Assembly (NCBI GenBank): GCA_016213455.1
Contig: JACRAG010000590.1
Span: 1 to 13,452, forward strand
DNA: 13,452 nt
Source: Anaerolineae bacterium
Lineage (GTDB): Bacteria > Chloroflexota > Anaerolineae > Anaerolineales > Anaerolineaceae
Direction of reading: 5' to 3'
This document shows positions 2,755-11,285 of the stretch, piece after piece. Positions within the stretch are counted from its first letter, which is position 1. Each line of letters opens with the position of its first letter. The notes beneath the pieces were generated by a model that saw only the letters and a list, made by a program, of their open reading frames with translations, had not been told where the DNA came from and ran no database searches. The translations under genes were made by a program, and so were the position numbers.

Positions 2755-3738
2755 ATGAACCGGTTTTTGCTTCGTAGATTGCTATTGCTGCCGGTGATTT
2801 TGGTGGTGTTGAACCTGGCGGGTTTTACCTATGCCAGCCTGGCGCAACGCAACCAGTCCGCGCAGAGCGCATTCGGTATGCGCCAGGTTGAAGAGCCGCC
2901 ATTGTGGGACCAGTATCGGGTTTACCTGGAGGGGGTATTCCAGGGTGATCTGGGGTCCATGCCGGTCGGCGCGAACCTTGGGGTGGGGTCTTTTGTTTGG
3001 AATGCGTTGTGGCCAAGCGTGGGGCTGTTCATCCTGGCGTTTCTGCTCAGCCTGCTGGTTGGCTTGCCGCTCGGACGGGCAGCGGTGCGGGTGGATCCTC
3101 CGGAAGTGCGTTCATGGTTGCCGCTGCTTTCCACCATTGGCCTGGCGATGCCGGGTTTTTACGTGGGCACCCTGCTGGTATCGCTGCTGCTCATTCAAGC
3201 CATCCAATCCGGTTCGCGCGCGATTCTGCCGGTCGCAGGATACGGTTGGGACCTGCACCTGGTCCTGCCGGTGATTGCCCTGGCCATTCGTCCTGCCATG
3301 CAGGTGGCGCGGGTGTCTGCCGGGCTGCTTTCAGAGGAGCTGAGCAAACGCTATGTCACCTCGGCGCGCGGTTTTGGCCATACCTGGAAGACAATCCTCA
3401 ACCGCAAGGCTTTGAAGAATGTGCTGGCTCCGTTATTTTTGGCCGTATCCAGCGCATTCCGCCTGACGATCGCTGAACTGGTGCTGGTTGAATACCTGTT
3501 TGATTGGCCAGGCATCGGACGCATGCTGGCGCGCACACTTGTCCCTCCCAGCACCATTTCACCGGGTGGGGGATTGGATTTGACCGTGTATTTCCTTCAT
3601 CCACCGCTGCTTGCACTGCTGTTACCCATCTTTGGCGTTGTGTTTTATCTGGTGGATACGATTGCTTCCTCCTCTGCACGCCAGATCGATCCACGCCTGG
3701 GGGGCGCGGGCCAGGCGGAGGAGGTGGTTTATGGCTAA
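2755..3738 (+). CDS. ABC transporter permease, OppB/DppB-like
   Basis: This 327-residue inner-membrane protein is related to the first permease subunit of peptide, nickel and other oligopeptide-family importers. It opens with a basic MNRFLLRR stretch and a hydrophobic helix (about 9-30), then a periplasmic-type loop ending in EGVFQGDLG. Further membrane segments are near 88-108, 122-148, 166-182, 222-245 and 283-305. The cytoplasmic coupling region is RYVTSARGFG...ALKNVL (199-224), and VEYLFDWPGIGRML (245-258) and IDPRL (311-315) are family hallmarks. The loop after the first helix lacks the common PGDP motif. GGGGAGA lies just upstream of the ATG. Its end overlaps the next permease by 8 nt, so the pair is translationally coupled. 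Permeases of this type work with a solute-binding protein and two ATPases, none of which is in the window. The substrate is unknown. Confidence 0.88.
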   Translation: MNRFLLRRLLLLPVILVVLNLAGFTYASLAQRNQSAQSAFGMRQVEEPPLWDQYRVYLEGVFQGDLGSMPVGANLGVGSFVWNALWPSVGLFILAFLLSLLVGLPLGRAAVRVDPPEVRSWLPLLSTIGLAMPGFYVGTLLVSLLLIQAIQSGSRAILPVAGYGWDLHLVLPVIALAIRPAMQVARVSAGLLSEELSKRYVTSARGFGHTWKTILNRKALKNVLAPLFLAVSSAFRLTIAELVLVEYLFDWPGIGRMLARTLVPPSTISPGGGLDLTVYFLHPPLLALLLPIFGVVFYLVDTIASSSARQIDPRLGGAGQAEEVVYG

Positions 3739-5920
3739 TGCAATGCGGAGACCTGCTTCTTCCTGGAATTGGGCGCTGTGGACCGGCTTGCTGATGGCTT
3801 TGATCGTCCTTCTGATGGCATTTGTGGGTCCAATGCTCGCGCCTGCCGACCCGATGAAAGAGAACTATATCGGTCAGGTGGGAGAACGCTTCATCAAGCC
3901 GCCATTCCCACCCAATACGATTGAGGGTTTTCCGTTGGGCTCGGACGAGTGGGGACGGGATCTGCTCAGCCGGCTCTTGTTTGCGATCAAACCCACCATG
4001 ACGTTGGTGCTGGTGGTGGCGGCGGTGCGCCTGGTGATTGGCATTGCCGCCGGCATGATCAGCGGCTGGTCGCGCTCGTGGTTTTCGCGGGTGCTGGATG
4101 TGTTGATTTCAGCATCGCTGACCATCCCTGTGTTGTTTGTGGCTTTGTTTGTTATCGCCTTGATGGGCAGCCGGTGGGGGGTGTGGGCCTTCATCCTGGG
4201 TTTGGCGATCACCGGTTGGGCCGAACCGGCGCGTATTGTGCGCGAACAGACCCGCGGTTTGAAGTCTCAGGCATTTGTGGAGGCTGCCTATGCCATGGGC
4301 GCCTCACCTGAGCAGGGTGTGCTCTCGCACGTGCTGCCGCATGTGCTGCCGATGATGTGGATTCAACTGGCCTTCGAAGTAGCCGGCAGCCTGCTGGTGA
4401 CCGCTTCGCTGGGTTTTCTGGGATATTTCATGAACGGCATCTGGGTGCCGGTTGGAGATTGGGTTGGGCAGCGCACCGCGGGCATGCCGGAACTGGGTGA
4501 AATGCTCGGGTCGGCGACCACGCAGCGCGTGCCCTGGTCGGCATTGTTTGCCGGTGCGCTGGTGGCCTTGATTGTGCTGGCGTTCAACTTGTTGGGTGAA
4601 GGACTGCGCGCGCAGCTAAACCCAGATCGGCAGCGCCGACGCGCGGATATGACCCTGGCTTCGGCGCGGGCCGGTGCCTGGGTGGAAGACAAAGTGTATG
4701 TTGCCAGCGCCAATCTGATGCGGTTGGCCTCAGGCAATGGTGTGGTGGTCCTGCTGGGTGTGGTGATCATCGGCGGAATATGGACCATTCAGGCCAGTCA
4801 ACCCCAACCAGAGGTTGGCCCGGCAGTCAGCGTGCAGGGCGGGCATTTTTGGCCGGTCACGCGCCATGATCCACAGGGCACCTATTGGACGGGTGTGGAA
4901 GGCCCTCGCAGCGCCAGCCTGTTGTGGCGCTTCCAATCCAGCAGTCCCATCACCAGCGGACCGGTGGTGGATGCACTCGGTCGCCTCTACGTGGGAACGC
5001 AGGAGCGCGAGCTGGTCGCAGTGAGCCCATCCGGTCAGGTATTATGGAAGGTAGAGCTCCCGGATGTTCCTTTCGGTTCACCAGCCCTGGCTGGCGATGG
5101 CTCCATATTCGTGGTGGATGCCAGCGCCGGGATCAGCTCCGTTTCTCCTGAGGGAAAACTCAACTGGTCGGCCAAATACACTGAGGGGCAGCAGCCGTTC
5201 AGTGGACCCGTCCTGGGTGTGGATGGCACGGCGTATTACGGTACAACCAGCCGCCTGGTGGCGGTATATCCCAGTGGGAATTTGCGTTTCCTGGTCAACC
5301 TGCCCACGTACAGCCTGGTGGATTTCATGCCGCGCCTGTCAGCGGATGGACGCTACCTGTTTATGGAGGACACCGTCACCGACACGGACACCGGCTCGCT
5401 GGTCTTTGACCAGACCCAACCCCCCATGGATGCTTACTTCGTCGGCTCCGATGCCGTGACCTATCTACGCGGGAAGGATGGGATTGATCAGTGGGAACCG
5501 ACCGACACCGGTTATGTATTGATCCAGAAGGCTAAGGTGGATGCGCGCCTGCTGGGGACCAACCTGCAGCGCCCTCAACAAAGCGGCGTCAGTCCAGGCG
5601 GCAATGTGTGGATCGTGTACAGTTCGGGCTTCGATGCTGCGCGTTTTGTCTGGATCAACACCGAATCGTCGGCTGTCAATATCATTCCCTTCCCGTCGGA
5701 ACAGACCCGGCTGATCGGCATTGACCAATCCGGCGCGGTGTACACCTGTGGAGAGGTCATGGGGGAGGGGGCGTTCTGCCGTTCCAACACAGCCGCGAGC
5801 GGCGAATTGAACTGGCAGATGGATCTGCCCGAGGGCGCCGGTGTGGTGGACGGCGCAATCGCGCCGAATCGCCTGTATGTGACGGTTGGACCGTTCCTGT
5901 ACGCCATCGGCGGTCAATGA
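3731..5920 (+). CDS. Fusion of an OppC/DppC-like ABC permease and a PQQ-type beta-propeller
   Basis: This 729-residue protein has two parts. Residues 1-300 are a full OppC/DppC permease: first helix about 17-36, the signature LGSDEWGRDLLSRLL (69-83), helices near 88-112, 122-145, 150-168, 208-233 and 270-292, and the coupling motif EAAYAMGASPEQG (184-196) ending in HVLP. A charged segment with RQRRR (300-304) follows. A seventh helix (about 336-354, GVVVLLGVVIIGG) leads to a tail of some 370 residues. The tail carries repeats such as PVVDALGRLYVGT...LVAVSPSGQVLWK (411-440) and a similar unit ending SPEGKLNWS (472-480). Less regular copies follow, up to SGELNWQ (690-696) and the closing LYAIGG. 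This is the pattern of a PQQ/Trp-docking-type beta-propeller. Six helices plus one would put the propeller outside the cytoplasm. I chose the ATG at 3731 because GGAGGAGG precedes it. The propeller's role is unknown. Substrate capture, sensing or docking are guesses. Confidence 0.88.
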   Translation: MANAMRRPASSWNWALWTGLLMALIVLLMAFVGPMLAPADPMKENYIGQVGERFIKPPFPPNTIEGFPLGSDEWGRDLLSRLLFAIKPTMTLVLVVAAVRLVIGIAAGMISGWSRSWFSRVLDVLISASLTIPVLFVALFVIALMGSRWGVWAFILGLAITGWAEPARIVREQTRGLKSQAFVEAAYAMGASPEQGVLSHVLPHVLPMMWIQLAFEVAGSLLVTASLGFLGYFMNGIWVPVGDWVGQRTAGMPELGEMLGSATTQRVPWSALFAGALVALIVLAFNLLGEGLRAQLNPDRQRRRADMTLASARAGAWVEDKVYVASANLMRLASGNGVVVLLGVVIIGGIWTIQASQPQPEVGPAVSVQGGHFWPVTRHDPQGTYWTGVEGPRSASLLWRFQSSSPITSGPVVDALGRLYVGTQERELVAVSPSGQVLWKVELPDVPFGSPALAGDGSIFVVDASAGISSVSPEGKLNWSAKYTEGQQPFSGPVLGVDGTAYYGTTSRLVAVYPSGNLRFLVNLPTYSLVDFMPRLSADGRYLFMEDTVTDTDTGSLVFDQTQPPMDAYFVGSDAVTYLRGKDGIDQWEPTDTGYVLIQKAKVDARLLGTNLQRPQQSGVSPGGNVWIVYSSGFDAARFVWINTESSAVNIIPFPSEQTRLIGIDQSGAVYTCGEVMGEGAFCRSNTAASGELNWQMDLPEGAGVVDGAIAPNRLYVTVGPFLYAIGGQ

Positions 5921-6015: not shown

Positions 6016-6507
6016 TCAGAGAATCACAAATCGACCCGCGCCGCTGTGCAAATCCAGAATGAAAATGGACCGCTCCTCCACCTTCAGCCCACCCAACGCG
6101 CCGGGATTGATGATGCGTGTGGCGCCGTGCTGTTCGTCGCGCCGGCGGTGCGAGTGACCGGTGAACAGGTAAGCCAGGTCGCCGCGAGCGGTCAACTCAT
6201 CCATGCGCGGGGTCAGATGCCCGTGGGCTGCCCCGATGGTCACGCCATCCACCGATCCAGTGTAGGTCATGCCGGAATAATTCAACGGGTTGAGGTCGAG
6301 CAGGGTTTGCCGGATCGCGCCGCTGGCGTAATCGTTATTCCCAAAAACGTGGATCACCTGAAAGCCCTGCAGCATCGCGGCGGTTTCGGGTGAGGTGAGG
6401 TCACCGCAGTGCAGCAGCAACTGGATGCCTTCCTGCTGAAAAATCGCCAGGGCAGCCCGCAGGTTGACCAGGTTGTTATGGGTGTCGGAGAGGATCCCGA
6501 TGCGCAT
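6016..6507 (-). CDS. Metallophosphoesterase, YfcE-like phosphodiesterase
   Basis: This compact 163-residue YfcE-family enzyme is a cytosolic metal-dependent phosphodiesterase. All motifs are present in order: D8-T-H10, G35-D36, G56-N-N-D59, AAHGH (H95, H97), G117-H-S-H120 and NPGA (134-137). The length is typical of the family. Its ATG is 3 nt after the stop of the rel gene on the same strand. A GGAG within the end of rel, about 12 nt upstream, is the likely ribosome-binding site, so the two genes form one operon. Linkage to a ppGpp hydrolase raises the idea that it acts on a nucleotide product, but family members are best known for artificial substrates and the physiological one is unclear. 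No T-rich terminator is visible beyond its stop. Confidence 0.9.
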   Translation of the reverse strand: MRIGILSDTHNNLVNLRAALAIFQQEGIQLLLHCGDLTSPETAAMLQGFQVIHVFGNNDYASGAIRQTLLDLNPLNYSGMTYTGSVDGVTIGAAHGHLTPRMDELTARGDLAYLFTGHSHRRRDEQHGATRIINPGALGGLKVEERSIFILDLHSGAGRFVIL

Positions 6508-6510
6508 CGA

Positions 6511-8370
6511 TCAAACGATCTCCAGCTCGCGGAAGTGGAAACCGCTGTGCAAAAAGGCCTTCTGCAGTGCGGCGCGTTGTTGTTCGTCTTCGACAAAGGA
6601 GACCACCAGGCGCAGGTAAAAGCCGCCGTCCGGGAGGGTGTTGTTGACCGAGCGCAGGATGTTGGCTTCGTGGTCCGAAACCAGGCCTGCCAGCCGGGCC
6701 AGCACGCCCGGGCGGTTGTCTTCTTTGGGCGCGTTGAGGTTGATGGTGGTCCAGTGCAGCGTCTCGCGGGTGATTTTGGCGTCATACAGCTTGCTGCGAA
6801 GGTCGTCCAGCGGAATGGCTCCTCCACCCACCGCGGTGTAAAGATCCTCCAGGCTGGCGCAGCCCAATTGTTCGAGCAGAAAATCCACCCGGTTGGTCTC
6901 CAGCGCCTGCACATCTTCCAGCGTCAGAATGCCTTGTGCGGCGATGATTTCGCGAACCAATTGCCGTCCGTGCTCGGCGGAGCGTTTGAGTGATTCGGTC
7001 GCCAGCACCAGGCGCAGCAGGCGGGCGGTGGACTCATTGCAGAAGTTCAGCCAGTCTTCACTCGGCACCAGGCGTTTACCGCTGGTGACCACTTCGACCA
7101 CATCACCCGGATTAACCCGGTCGGATAACCGCGCCAGGTTGCCGTTGACTTTGACGGCTGAGATTTTGTCGAGCAAAAACTCCTGTTGAATTGAGGCGAC
7201 CGCGTCCAGTACCGTGGAGCCTTCGCGCAGAAAGCGCGCCCCGCCGGATGGGGTGAGGATCTCCACCGGGCGGTAGAGGCTGGTGTCGCGCTGTTTTTTG
7301 ATACAATCCACCACGCCCCAGGTGTTTTCGCCTTCCATTTCGCGCGTCGCGATGGCTACTTCCACCGCGCCATAGTCGGGCAGCCAGCCGGTGACCTGGA
7401 TGGCGCGGTATCCGTTTTGTGGGAAGGCGATGAAATCGTCGAAGCGGTCGTTGTCCAGGTAGGGACCAAAGAAAGTGTTGACAGCCCCCAGCAGGTTGTA
7501 GCACTGCGCGCGGTCTTCGTCATCCACCACCAGGCGGAAGCTGATCAAGTCGTTGAGGTGCATGAAGCTGGTGAGGGGGGCTTTGCGGGCGCGCGCCATG
7601 CGGCGCAGTTTTTGCCAGGATTGCCAGTAGCCGTTGACCAGGATGTTCACTGAGCCGCTTACGCCGGTTTTTTCCATCAGATGACTGAGCTGATCCATGA
7701 ACGGATTGATGAAGGAGATCTGCAGGCGCGGATCGGCATCCACCCGGGCGCGCACATCGGTATAGGTGTCCGGCTCGGCGAAGGGGAAAGCCATATCTTC
7801 CAGCCAGCAGCGCCACTTGTGGCAGTTGAGGATGCCCGCCAGTTTTCCGTAAGCGCGGATGGCTTCGGTGGCTTTCTGTACGCGCTTGGCAGGCGACATG
7901 TGTTCCAAAGTGAGCAGGTTGTGGCTTTTGTCCGCCAGTTTGACCAGGAACACGCCCGGGTCGCGAAACATGGCGATTTTGCGCAGGGTTTCCATTTCGC
8001 GCGAGCGACCGTCGCGCGGGTTGCTCAGCTTGGTTACGCCGTCCACAATGTAAGCCACATCTTCGCCCAGCTTGCCAGGGAAAAGCGTGCGAATCTGGTC
8101 CAGGCTTTCGCCGGAGTCTTCCACGGCATCATGCAGCAGACCGGCGATGGTCCAGGCTTCGTTCCCAACCAGGCGGTCCAGGAAAGCAGCCACCCAGGCG
8201 CAGTGCGTCTCGAAGTAGGGTTCGCCGCTGATACGCTTTTGACCGGCGTGGACTTTTTGCCCCCACGCAAAGGCGGCAGCGATGGATTCCGTACGAGGGA
8301 TGAACTCGCCGGGGTTGAATTCATCCGCGATGGATGGACGCAAGGAGTGAACCGGTAATATATCGACCAT
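6511..8370 (-). CDS. rel: RelA/SpoT homologue: intact hydrolase domain, degenerate synthetase domain
   Basis: This 619-residue cytosolic protein is of the long stringent-response family that makes or degrades (p)ppGpp. The N-terminal HD hydrolase domain (about 30-200) keeps its landmarks: HAGQKRISGEPY (41-52), H56, LLHDAVED (H80, D81, E84, D85) and KLADKSHN (D147, N151). The synthetase domain (about 220-360) is recognisable but worn. D274 (NDLISFR), Y321 (NGY) and E337 (VEVAIAT) remain. The GRPK block is NGYWQ, RFKDY is RFDDF, QSxHT is RAIQV, and the QIRT...AAHW region is AIAT with no AAHW. A TGS domain (368-430), a short helical region and an ACT domain (541-619) follow. The cysteine-containing zinc-finger region between helix and ACT is absent, so the protein is about 100 residues short. 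I chose the ATG at 8370 because a -10 box abuts it and family similarity starts soon after. It most likely acts as a ppGpp hydrolase. Confidence 0.87.
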   Translation of the reverse strand: MVDILPVHSLRPSIADEFNPGEFIPRTESIAAAFAWGQKVHAGQKRISGEPYFETHCAWVAAFLDRLVGNEAWTIAGLLHDAVEDSGESLDQIRTLFPGKLGEDVAYIVDGVTKLSNPRDGRSREMETLRKIAMFRDPGVFLVKLADKSHNLLTLEHMSPAKRVQKATEAIRAYGKLAGILNCHKWRCWLEDMAFPFAEPDTYTDVRARVDADPRLQISFINPFMDQLSHLMEKTGVSGSVNILVNGYWQSWQKLRRMARARKAPLTSFMHLNDLISFRLVVDDEDRAQCYNLLGAVNTFFGPYLDNDRFDDFIAFPQNGYRAIQVTGWLPDYGAVEVAIATREMEGENTWGVVDCIKKQRDTSLYRPVEILTPSGGARFLREGSTVLDAVASIQQEFLLDKISAVKVNGNLARLSDRVNPGDVVEVVTSGKRLVPSEDWLNFCNESTARLLRLVLATESLKRSAEHGRQLVREIIAAQGILTLEDVQALETNRVDFLLEQLGCASLEDLYTAVGGGAIPLDDLRSKLYDAKITRETLHWTTINLNAPKEDNRPGVLARLAGLVSDHEANILRSVNNTLPDGGFYLRLVVSFVEDEQQRAALQKAFLHSGFHFRELEIV

Positions 8371-8376
8371 GTGTCC

Positions 8377-8405
8377 ATTGTACTCACTCGTTGTAGTCGA
8401 TACAA
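8377..8405 (-). promoter_or_regulatory. Promoter of the rel gene (probable leaderless start)
   Basis: On the minus strand TACAAT (complement of 8377-8382) ends 6 nt before the ATG at 8370. A partial -35, TTGTAT (complement of 8400-8405), lies at a 17-nt spacing. Transcription would begin at about the ATG itself. The bases between, GGACAC, offer no normal Shine-Dalgarno. Confidence 0.5.
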
Positions 8406-8466
8406 TTATGGATGGGGGAATGTGACAGAACCGGTTGAATACAGGAGGAAAATCACAGCCCGATGA

Positions 8467-8495
8467 TTGACAACCCGGCGACCGCACGTTATAAT
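8467..8495 (+). promoter_or_regulatory. Perfect-consensus sigma70 promoter of the S1-domain gene
   Basis: TTGACA (8467-8472) and TATAAT (8490-8495) are separated by exactly 17 nt. Transcription should start near 8502, leaving a leader of about 28 nt that contains the AGGGAGAG ribosome-binding site. This is the strongest promoter I can see in the window and suggests high constitutive expression. It is divergent from the rel promoter about 85 nt away. Confidence 0.85.
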
Positions 8496-8529
8496 CGACT
8501 GTCGCATCACTTTTTAGGGAGAGTACGTA

Positions 8530-9387
8530 ATGGAGCCTGAAGTAACTGTTGATATTATTGATACCCCAGAAGAGAATGAATCAGAAATAACCCCAAAGCA
8601 ACACTATACCGGTAAGGTTTTGAAAGTCGGTCTGGCTGGAGCGCTTGTGGATATTGGCACGGGTAAACCTGCGCTGATTCACATCTCCCAGCTGATCCCC
8701 CCCACGGATGAGCCGATCAAGCGCGTCGAAGACGTGCTGCAGGTTGGCCAGGAGTTGGAGGTGTGGGTGAAACGCATCAAAGACGAGCGCGTTGAGCTGA
8801 CCATGCTCAAACCGCTTGACATGGAATGGCGTGACATCCGCAAGGGCATGACCGTGAAGGGCAAGGTCGTGCGTCTGGAAAAATTTGGCGCTTTCGTTGA
8901 GATCGGCGCCGAACGCCCCGGGTTGATCCACATCTCCGAAATGGCCCACGGTTACGTGCGCCAGCCCTCGGATGTGGTCAAAGAAGGCGACGAGATTGAA
9001 GCGCAGGTGATTGACGTCAATCGCAAGAAACGCCAGATCAAACTGAGCATCAAAGCTCTGCTGCCCGAACCGGTTGTGGAAGAAGAACCCGCTCGCGCGT
9101 TTGTTTCCGACATGCCCAAACGCGACAAGCCCGTCCGCAAAAAGAAGACCAAATCTTCTCGCGGTCGTGGTGAAGATGGCGGCAGCGATGTGGACGAATT
9201 GCTGGCTGCGCTCGGTCACTCCGAGGGCGAAGGCGAATCCGAAACCGCGATGGCCGTCGCCTGGCGCGAAGCCATGGAGCGCGCTAAAGCCCGCAAGAAC
9301 GACGATAAATCTCGCCGTAAGGGTGTCTCAGAGGAAACCGAAGAAATCTTCAGCCGCACGCTGGACAATAAAGTCAAGACCAGCTAG
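8530..9387 (+). CDS. S1 RNA-binding domain protein (two S1 repeats)
   Basis: This 285-residue protein has two S1-type OB folds. The first spans about residues 25-95 (YTGKVLKVGLAGALVDIG, then ALIHISQL) and the second about 105-175 (GMTVKGKVVRLEKFGAFVEIG, then GLIHISEM and KLSIKAL). The second is the more canonical. A basic patch with KRDKPVRKKKTKSSRGRG (197-214) and a highly charged, probably disordered C-terminus follow. The S1 repeats are like those of ribosomal protein S1 and the Tex/PNPase S1 modules, so single-stranded RNA binding, perhaps in translation or RNA turnover, is likely. With two repeats it is much shorter than the four- to six-repeat S1 of many bacteria. AGGGAGAG precedes the ATG. 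It is monocistronic, between a perfect-consensus promoter and its own terminator. Its exact role is not evident from sequence. Confidence 0.88.
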   Translation: MEPEVTVDIIDTPEENESEITPKQHYTGKVLKVGLAGALVDIGTGKPALIHISQLIPPTDEPIKRVEDVLQVGQELEVWVKRIKDERVELTMLKPLDMEWRDIRKGMTVKGKVVRLEKFGAFVEIGAERPGLIHISEMAHGYVRQPSDVVKEGDEIEAQVIDVNRKKRQIKLSIKALLPEPVVEEEPARAFVSDMPKRDKPVRKKKTKSSRGRGEDGGSDVDELLAALGHSEGEGESETAMAVAWREAMERAKARKNDDKSRRKGVSEETEEIFSRTLDNKVKTS

Positions 9388-9430
9388 CGACCCAGGATTG
9401 GCTCCGGCTCTCCCACGGGAAGAAAAAAGA

Positions 9431-9460
9431 TCCCGCCGAAACCTCGGCGGGACTTTCTTT
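9431..9460 (+). terminator. Intrinsic terminator of the S1-domain gene
   Basis: TCCCGCCGA (9431-9439) and TCGGCGGGA (9444-9452) form a 9-bp GC-rich stem with an AACC loop, followed by CTTTCTTT. An A-rich run on the other side (AGAAAAAAGA) would let it also work on the minus strand. Confidence 0.88.
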
Positions 9461-9488
9461 GCAAAATGGATGCGCTTTATGGTAAACT
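9459..9488 (+). promoter_or_regulatory. Candidate pyrG promoter
   Basis: TTGCAA (9459-9464) and TAAACT (9483-9488) lie 18 nt apart, and TGG directly before the -10 hexamer gives an extended -10. Predicted transcription start is near 9495, leaving a leader of about 175 nt to the pyrG ATG. Neither hexamer is perfect. Confidence 0.45.
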
Positions 9489-9503
9489 GTCAGCATCATT
9501 CAT

Positions 9504-9522
9504 AACCTGCTGCTGGCAGGTT
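9504..9522 (+). other. Small hairpin early in the pyrG leader
   Basis: AACCTGC (9504-9510) pairs with GCAGGTT (9516-9522) around TGCTG, followed by TTGCTGTTTGTT. It could be a pause hairpin or a weak terminator at the 5' end of the leader. A second 7-bp hairpin, GTTTCAC/GTGAAAC (9569-9592), lies further down. Confidence 0.35.
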
Positions 9523-9611
9523 TTGCTGTTTGTTATTGGAATCATAACAATGATGAAAGCAGGATCAGGTTTCACCATACAACAAGTGAAACGAGCACCT
9601 TGAACCCAATG

Positions 9612-9655
9612 AAGTGGGGAGGCGCCGGTAACCGGCCCTCCCCACTTCTCTTTTT
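9612..9655 (+). terminator. Intrinsic terminator within the pyrG leader (putative attenuator)
   Basis: AAGTGGGGAGG (9612-9622) pairs perfectly with CCTCCCCACTT (9637-9647). Inside, GCCGG (9624-9628) pairs with CCGGC (9632-9636) around TAA, with a single bulged C. CTCTTTTT follows. The T tract ends 16 nt before the pyrG ATG, and those 16 nt hold the ribosome-binding site AAGGA and no room for a promoter. Any pyrG transcript must therefore read through this hairpin, which makes it a probable attenuator. The alternative is the 3' end of a small RNA with pyrG expressed by read-through. Confidence 0.8.
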
Positions 9656-9671
9656 GATGGAAGGATGAAGC

Positions 9672-11285
9672 ATGGCGACCAAGTATATTTTCTTCACCGG
9701 TGGTGTGGTCAGTTCGGTGGGTAAAGGCGTGACGGCGGCGGCAATGGGGCGCGCCCTGAAAGAGCGCGGTTTTTCGGTGGCGGTACAAAAGCTGGACCCG
9801 TATATTAATGTCGATCCGGGGACAATGAGCCCTTACCAGCACGGCGAAGTGTATGTGCTGGATGACGGCGCCGAAACCGACCTGGATTTGGGCCATTATG
9901 AGCGTTTCATTGATGTGCGCCTTAACCGGGTCTGCAACATCACCACCGGTCAGGTGTATGCCGAGGTGATTTCCAAGGAGCGGCGCGGTGATTATCTGGG
10001 CGGCACCATCCAGGTCCTCCCGCATATCACCAACGAGATCAAACGGCGCATCGCCATGGTGACCAAGACCACCGGCGCGGAGATTGTGCTGGTGGAGGTG
10101 GGCGGTACGGTCGGCGACATCGAAAGCCTGCCCTTCCTGGAAGCCATTCGCCAGCTGCGCGGTGACTTGGGGCGTGAGAACACATTCTACATTCATGTCA
10201 CCTGGCTGCCTTACATCGGCGCGACAGATGAGCTGAAGACCAAGCCCACCCAGCACTCAGTGCGCGAACTGCGCTCGATCGGTATCTCGCCGGATATGAT
10301 CGTGGCGCGTTCCGACCATCCGGTGGATGAAGGACTGCGCGAGAAGATCGCCCTGTTCTGCGACGTCGAGCGGCGGGCCGTGGTCCCCATGGTGACATCG
10401 CAGATCCTGTACGAAATTCCACTATTGATTGAGCAGGCCGGGGTTGCCGATTACCTGGTGCAGCGCCTGGGGCTGACCCCGCGCTCCCAGCCGGACTGGA
10501 CCGATTGGAAACACCTGGTGGATATGGTTCGCCAGCCCAAGCCAACGGTGACCATCGCGCTGGTGGGCAAGTATGTGGAGCTGCATGACGCTTATATGAG
10601 CGTGCGCGAGGCGCTGAAGCACGCTGCGCTCAAGCTGGGGGTCGAGCTTGACATCCGTTGGGTGCATTCGGCTGAGCTGGAAAAAGGCAAGGGATGGGAC
10701 CAGGTGAAGGCAGCCGATGGTGTGCTGGTGCCGGGTGGTTTTGGCAGCCGCGGCATCGAAGGGAAAATCCAGGCCATTCAATACGCGCGCTCCGAAAAGG
10801 TGCCTTTCCTGGGATTGTGCCTGGGCATGCAGTTGATGGTGGTCGAGTTCGGGCGCTGGGTGTACGGTACGGATGAGGTCAACTCAACGGAATTTGACCG
10901 CTCCACCCTGCACCCGGTGATTGACCTGATGCCCGAACAGCACGGCATCACCGACATGGGCGGGACGATGCGCCTGGGATTGTACCCCTGCAAGCTGCAG
11001 CCCGGCAGCATCGCCGAGGCTTGCTATGGCGTGGAAGAGGTGCAGGAACGCCACCGCCACCGCTTTGAGTTCAACAATGCCTTCCGGGATGAATTTTATG
11101 CGCGCGGCATGCGCTTCTCCGGGCTGTCACCGGATGGGCGCCTGGTGGAAATTGCTGAGTTGGTGGACCATCCCTTCATGCTCGCCACGCAATTCCACCC
11201 GGAATTTTTGTCACGTCCCAACCGGCCGCACCCGCTTTTCCTGGGCTTCATCAAGGCTGCGGCTGAAAAGGCCGGCGTAATCTAA
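9672..11285 (+). CDS. pyrG: CTP synthase (glutamine-hydrolysing)
   Basis: This 537-residue enzyme makes CTP from UTP, ATP and glutamine, the last step of de novo pyrimidine nucleotide synthesis. The N-terminal amidoligase domain (1-270) has [10 protein letters not shown] (10-19), the [21 protein letters not shown] block (40-60), [10 protein letters not shown] (70-79) and [11 protein letters not shown] (142-152). The C-terminal class I glutamine amidotransferase domain has the oxyanion strand VPGGFG (353-358), nucleophile C383 in GLCLGMQ, and the catalytic pair H509/E511 in HPEFLSRP. Length and motif order match the family. The ATG is supported by AAGGA upstream and by protein similarity from residue 2. 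A strong terminator hairpin lies between the promoter and this start, so expression is probably controlled by attenuation. The run of extra Gs used by Bacillus-type pyrG control is not evident here. Confidence 0.97.

Follow-up and report, generated by a model that had tools for sequence, protein, structure and literature searches.

A peptide-type ABC permease of Anaerolineae fused to a propeller predicted to face outward: candidate core of an importer without a free binding protein

Type I ATP-binding cassette (ABC) importers are generally described as requiring a two-lobed binding protein. How, then, might such a system work if one of its permeases carries a large additional domain of another fold? 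This question is raised by a stretch of 13,452 nucleotides from an Anaerolineae bacterium (assembly GCA_016213455.1, contig JACRAG010000590.1), here called the window. An open reading frame (ORF) of 729 codons on its plus strand (3731-5920; ATG at 3731, stop at 5918-5920) encodes, in a single frame, an OppC/DppC-type permease (C), a seventh transmembrane helix (TM7) and one PQQ-type propeller, and an OppB/DppB-type partner (B) is encoded ahead of it. We incline tentatively, short of calling it probable, to the view that the pair is the core of a peptide-type ABC importer without a solute-binding protein (SBP), in which the propeller is a tethered receptor and the ATPases act in trans. The features of the pair, all on the plus strand, are as follows.

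2755-3738, plus: partner B permease, OppB/DppB type, 327 amino acids
2836-2901, plus: residues 28-49 of B, the outer segment that links the first transmembrane helix to the next helix, here shortened (length comparison, model)
3717-3724, plus: ribosome-binding-like GGAGGAGG before the C start (direct reading)
3731-5920, plus: C permease fused to propeller, 729 amino acids (ORF, Pfam, homologues)
3770-4627, plus: permease core, residues 14-299, six helices (Pfam, alignment, model, fold match)
4277-4354, plus: EAA (coupling) loop, residues 183-208 (alignment of 92 rows)
4604-4690, plus: positively charged loop, residues 292-320, containing RQRRR (charge count in homologues)
4691-4795, plus: TM7, model residues 321-355 (alignment and model)
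4835-5917, plus: predicted eight-bladed PQQ-type propeller, residues 369-729 (model and fold match)
5747-5749, plus: Cys673, a Cys in 106/106 homologues, facing Cys683 in a modelled hairpin
5777-5779, plus: Cys683, a Cys in 106/106 homologues

A preliminary description of this DNA, made from the letters alone, had read a complete OppC/DppC permease continuing into a seventh helix and about 370 residues of propeller, and motifs, Pfam and a structural model agree with it. LGSDEWGRD stands at residue 69, EAAYAMGAS at 184 and RQRRR at 300, and a hydrophobic stretch begins at 336. BPD_transp_1 covers residues 104-299 (E 4.3e-22; 79.2 bits against a cut-off of 26.4) and PQQ_2 residues 394-517 (E 1.1e-13). 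In the AlphaFold2 model (predicted local distance difference test 86.9, low at 311-330), the permease helices are followed by another at 321-355, and strands occupy the region from 396 to 727. Its permease part shows the six-helix fold of solved DppC/OppC structures (8z1v_B and others), while the fold match of the propeller part starts at 362 or 369 and ends at 729. The propeller part matches YxaL, Rv3035 and BamB, the first two tied as closest; its counterparts are eight-bladed, and we read it as an eight-bladed propeller. The alignment with Escherichia coli DppC stops at about residue 300, so everything beyond is extra. Across 92 aligned rows, window included, G190 of the EAA loop of C is invariant and E184, H200 and P203 are each conserved in at least 90%. 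The fusion scores below every listed cut-off of the curated NCBIfam OppC/DppC equivalogs (best Opp4C, 141.3 against 350). A PQQ-dependent enzyme was ruled out, the fusion protein having no match to the PQQ dehydrogenase domain PF01011 among its Pfam matches at E up to 1, as was a true BamB (24.5 bits against the 285.2 of the TIGR03300 equivalog).

The side of the membrane on which the propeller lies was assessed in 106 homologues shorter than 900 residues, window included. A TM7 stretch is found in 105 of them; the loop ahead of it (columns 292-334) has on average 9.1 Lys plus Arg and a net charge of +5.0, against 1.3 and -0.8 in the stretch beyond. Cys673 and Cys683 are invariant and opposed in a modelled hairpin (strands 669-676 and 680-687), and fit a disulphide outside the cell; at no other propeller column do at least 20 of the 106 have a cysteine. 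Charge, helix count and cysteines thus support the earlier prediction that the propeller faces outward. In our judgement, the Pro/Thr-rich tails of proteins P0006-P0008 and of the fusion at locus L076 agree with this location. The L076 protein (8008-10938, minus) has about 250 additional C-terminal residues past its Pro/Thr-rich linker, with no Pfam match in them.

The fusion is not peculiar to one contig. A protein search gave 408 matches, the best 120 of which are listed (106 below 900 residues and 14 longer); the permease-propeller order, which the preliminary description had proposed to look for in other genomes, is shared throughout these 120, with P0002-P0005 at 61-64% identity over 99-100% of the query. 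Several are annotated merely as 'peptide/nickel transport system permease protein', and the finding bears on the annotation of such proteins labelled only permease. In genome samples that overlap, and in which some matches are not full fusions, a match was present in 14/396 genomes of the class at 1e-60 and 20/301 of the order at 1e-50 (disrupted copies in G753 and G759 included in the latter), and, the window's genome being counted throughout, in 3/400 of the phylum, all three in the window's class and one of them (G067) without the propeller. Within the window's genus, G979 has the fusion at 63% identity, and G271 and G1001 gave no match at 1e-50. As far as sampled, the fusion is therefore patchy and restricted to Anaerolineae.

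That a frameshift in assembly joined two neighboring genes is a practically negligible alternative. In its favor, the window is one contig of a genome 61.6% complete; against it, the same domain order recurs in many contigs with open frames, on which ground a sequencing-error join was rejected, and linker and TM7 are conserved. Separate permease and propeller genes, which the preliminary description had held would tell against the fusion, appeared at two loci and were rejected as well, both being disrupted copies: at L082 the frame changes at or beside an unresolved base, and the L083 gene (9534-10514, minus) is internally deleted and frame-disrupted and retains the last propeller blade. Short matches had hinted at an architecture with fewer parts. 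Among 49 of them (P0121-P0169), 12 reach the linker or the propeller start, some break off close to or within the loop, and P0157-P0160 stop soon past the sixth helix; many of the remaining ones we read as fragments cut by contig ends or by frame disruption, although this is not proven case by case. In an earlier tree of 71 rows, all 47 fused rows fall in a single clade together with the propeller-less P0142 and P0143, for which we could not tell truncation from loss.

The preliminary description had also raised the possibility that the fusion is always paired with a permease of the 2755-3738 type. We surveyed 35 loci (the window, L023-L035 and L064-L084), 33 of which remained once L083 and L084 were set aside as having no intact propeller. 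A B gene was found in 33 of the 35, and ahead of the fusion in 31 of the 33, so that pairing is the rule with two exceptions: in L081 another propeller ORF precedes the fusion and the contig then ends, and in L082 the place of B is taken by a DcrB-like ORF. The two reading frames share 8 bases in the window, and 1-11 bases in 22 of 30 pairs when the start nearest the B stop is chosen.

B itself departs from ordinary partners at the outer segment called the scoop. A study of E. coli DppB describes a scoop that engages the DppA cleft and seals the cavity (PMC12136057). Window B has 28 residues between fixed points that enclose 39-45 in four distinct ordinary B permeases, its model has a coil at 38-49 with the scoop helices absent, and its alignments to six OppB/NikB/GsiC profiles start 7-15 positions late. 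Thus, by both length and model, it lacks the scoop motif of SBP-dependent type I peptide importers. All 31 B proteins measured, 29 of them adjoining an intact fusion, have a segment of 26-32 residues, and all 31 retain E195 and G208 of the coupling loop.

The surroundings of the pair were searched for the missing parts of an importer. We took as an Opp-type ATPase any match to the Opp ATPases of the same genome at E <1e-60, and for peptide SBPs we scanned with a profile built from six SBP ORFs, of which one is incomplete. No Opp-type ATPase gene lies within 2 kb at any of the 33 propeller loci, 22 of which have at least 2 kb of flank on both sides (nearest, 5.3 kb at L029), and no peptide-SBP gene within 4 kb at any of them, 16 having 4 kb on both sides (nearest, 4.8 kb at L065). 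ATPases with an oligo_HPY domain are encoded in all 30 genomes tested. Candidates for a dedicated ATPase were rejected. At L079 (3455-7872, plus), the genes for an FtsX-type permease and for a 549-residue protein with two ABC_tran domains precede the pair, the latter 85 bases upstream; oligo_HPY is not among the listed families (25 of 31) for the latter, and because its gene follows that of the FtsX-type permease we read it as part of a neighboring system. At L078, the tail of an ATPase gene occupies the matching place. The L026 ATPase and one L075 protein belong to other ABC types.

The propeller is one of several outer modules in the wider family. Two propellers are present in each of the 14 long homologues among the 120 listed and in L070, L078, L079 and L080, and three in L081. 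In L075 and P0263, a DUF885 domain follows the propeller in frame. HE..PGHH is intact in three fused DUF885 domains and in 13/13 comparison proteins, one of which (P0260) itself has a partial propeller. We infer that DUF885 is a peptidase; Pfam gives it no function, and in the literature searched no paper was on it by title. A search with B matched 22/298 class genomes at 1e-30 and led to nine new propeller-less relatives. In some, C carries an M28-like domain: L112 has B, C and this domain in a single ORF, L114 has a B gene followed by C-M28, and P0357 (1841 residues), which came from another search, is a single chain of B and C, an additional helix behind C, an M28-like domain and DUF885. 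L113 and L115, whose C extensions end at contig ends, were assigned to this group by tree only; ORFs without a Pfam match stand upstream of B at L115:3086-4846 (minus) and L113:1-852 (plus). We dropped the idea that the M28 domains are working peptidases: in an alignment to the Aeromonas aminopeptidase, L112 has Ala and L114 has Glu at what we take to be the bridging-Asp position. These metal-site substitutions suggest that the domains may bind rather than cut.

Six sister loci are unfused. L109 and L110, two nearly identical loci from a single genus, encode B, C and two Opp-type ATPases; at L108, a gene beside B (6535-8550, minus; 671 residues) encodes an OppC-type permease continuing in one frame into an Opp-type ATPase that has oligo_HPY; and L084, L107 and L111 have B and C without such an ATPase, L107 with a separate ZnuA-type system upstream. 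Thus, an Opp-type ATPase is adjacent or fused in 3/6, and a peptide SBP is encoded at 0/6.

In a tree of 59 permease halves, propeller, M28 and unfused relatives form one part (support 100/100), which also holds four unfused rows first labelled ordinary (P0167-P0170). Within it, one branch holds the 25 propeller rows (100/95), another the five M28 rows (99/98) and a third ten unfused rows (100/97), and the unfused P0162 stands on a long branch beside the propeller rows (95/91); the branching order of the three groups is poorly supported (90/71). Scoop segments of 20-29 residues are also found in the unfused group and the M28 group; five ordinary B sequences have 38-45. On this evidence, the shortening, common to both groups, preceded the propeller, and the outer modules were added after it, probably more than once, because they differ. 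Somewhat more hesitantly than for the pair itself, we could speculate that Anaerolineae harbor a lineage, not described in the literature searched, of SBP-independent peptide-type ABC importers in which SBP docking was lost and exchangeable outer modules were then placed on C: one to three propellers, a propeller followed by DUF885, or an M28-like domain, the last now possibly a binding domain.

How such a pair would work can be sketched. B and C would form the membrane core of an Opp/Dpp-type importer that has dispensed with a binding protein, whether free or lipid-anchored, and the propeller beyond TM7 would sit next to the pathway entrance on the outer face. As a tethered receptor, it could capture a substrate, or a larger partner bearing one, and pass it on, while Opp-type ATPases encoded elsewhere would drive the pair through the retained EAA loops. 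We infer transport, substrate class, receptor role and ATPase partner alike. Peptides or peptide fragments are suggested as cargo because both non-propeller modules look peptidase-derived (DUF885 by the reading above). A propeller standing in place of peptidase-like modules would most simply be a receptor or the holder of one. If so, the receptor of a type I ABC importer would be exchangeable, and the pair would offer a natural system for testing the minimal needs of substrate delivery and ATPase activation.

The preliminary description had suggested that the propeller replaces or assists the SBP. Replacement is favored over mere assistance because the B scoop is shortened and no peptide-SBP gene lies nearby; yet unfused relatives share the shortening, which therefore does not establish that the propeller took over. 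Other observations also weigh against the receptor view. No ligand or binding site of the propeller was identified, and such propellers can also act as scaffolds. The short flanks at many loci limit the absence of ATPase and SBP genes, and an ABC ATPase of another type lies within about 2.2 kb in 4/33 loci (L026, L075, L078, L079). Moreover, oligo_HPY ATPases are also found in 11/14 control genomes and are therefore weak evidence, and the ATPase-bearing sister loci count as two, given that L109 and L110 are near-identical.

The strongest rival, which we nevertheless regard as unlikely, keeps peptide import and makes the propeller a docking platform that keeps some binding protein or envelope enzyme close to the mouth of the permease. 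Rv3035, one of the closest folds, is eight-bladed, and a solved entry shows it bound to the SBP-like FecB. In mycobacteria, Rv3035 has been placed with FecB and AftB by co-precipitation and AlphaFold predictions, although tagged AftB did not co-purify there (PMC12802301). DUF885 domains with an intact HE..PGHH behind the propeller in L075 and P0263 would fit a platform. The shortened scoop of B speaks against it, as does the small number of neighbors besides B that recur across families: a dihydropyrimidinase at five loci, a CcrM-like methylase at five and an upstream ORF at three. We find it still less likely that the pair is a transport-dead sensor (a transceptor), in which the propeller would bind outside and the permeases relay inward, via an N-terminal tetratricopeptide repeat (TPR) where present. 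A TPR match (E up to 0.01) occurs in seven of eight N-extended proteins scanned (13 seen; three of the eight reach the Pfam cut-off) and in L070, a separate TPR-like ORF stands upstream of B in L083 (11473-11937), and no dedicated ATPase lies nearby. However, both B and C retain their EAA loops, the sister loci retain Opp ATPases, and a Pfam scan found no TPR in the window's fusion protein. The sensor would be somewhat less unlikely for members with N-terminal TPR-like stretches.

Set against known systems, the tethered receptor would have partial precedents. Compared with OppC/DppC in E. coli DppBCDF (8z1v) and Mycobacterium tuberculosis OppABCD (8j5q), only the present protein has the extra TM7 and propeller, and unlike Opp/Dpp importers the pair has neither peptide-SBP nor Opp-type ATPase genes alongside and a shortened B scoop. 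OpuA is an importer with a tethered substrate-binding domain. GlnPQ shares the covalent attachment of outer domains, one or several of them, to the membrane part, its own being tandem substrate-binding domains (PMC8025302). The window protein also joins a predicted extracytoplasmic domain to a permease, the fusion being read directly; here, in contrast to GlnPQ and OpuA, that domain is attached via a seventh helix past six permease helices and is modelled as an eight-bladed propeller rather than a two-lobed Venus flytrap. One to three propellers are reminiscent of the GlnPQ tandem. YxaL, Rv3035 and BamB are PQQ-type propellers, none a permease by its entry title. MsmX and MsmK resemble the present case in that they serve permease genes without an ATPase gene of their own; those are carbohydrate importers, for which borrowing of ATPases is demonstrated (PMC7658222), whereas for our pair it would be supposed. 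Thus, tethered binding domains and shared ATPases are already known, and a propeller or peptidase-like domain on an Opp/Dpp permease is undescribed in the literature searched, which comprised titles and abstract starts, most subscription papers lying outside.

Several genes recur beside the pairs. Directly downstream of the fusion, a dihydropyrimidinase-like amidohydrolase is encoded in L028, L071, L072, L073 and L074 (two families); two of these proteins were checked, both score above the D-hydantoinase cut-off, and the gene may hint at the substrate. In L023, L024, L025, L078 and L079 (two families), this position is taken by a CcrM-like adenine methyltransferase gene, the L023 product scoring under the CcrM cut-off. 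Related ORFs of 187-194 residues stand upstream of B at L068:11568-12131 (minus), L071:6921-7505 (plus) and L073:3712-4284 (plus), the L071 copy having no Pfam or NCBIfam match. Finally, the permease pair of the window lies between two YfcE-family phosphodiesterase genes (1976-2584, plus; 6016-6507, minus), and at L009 an ORF that starts similarly sits before B.

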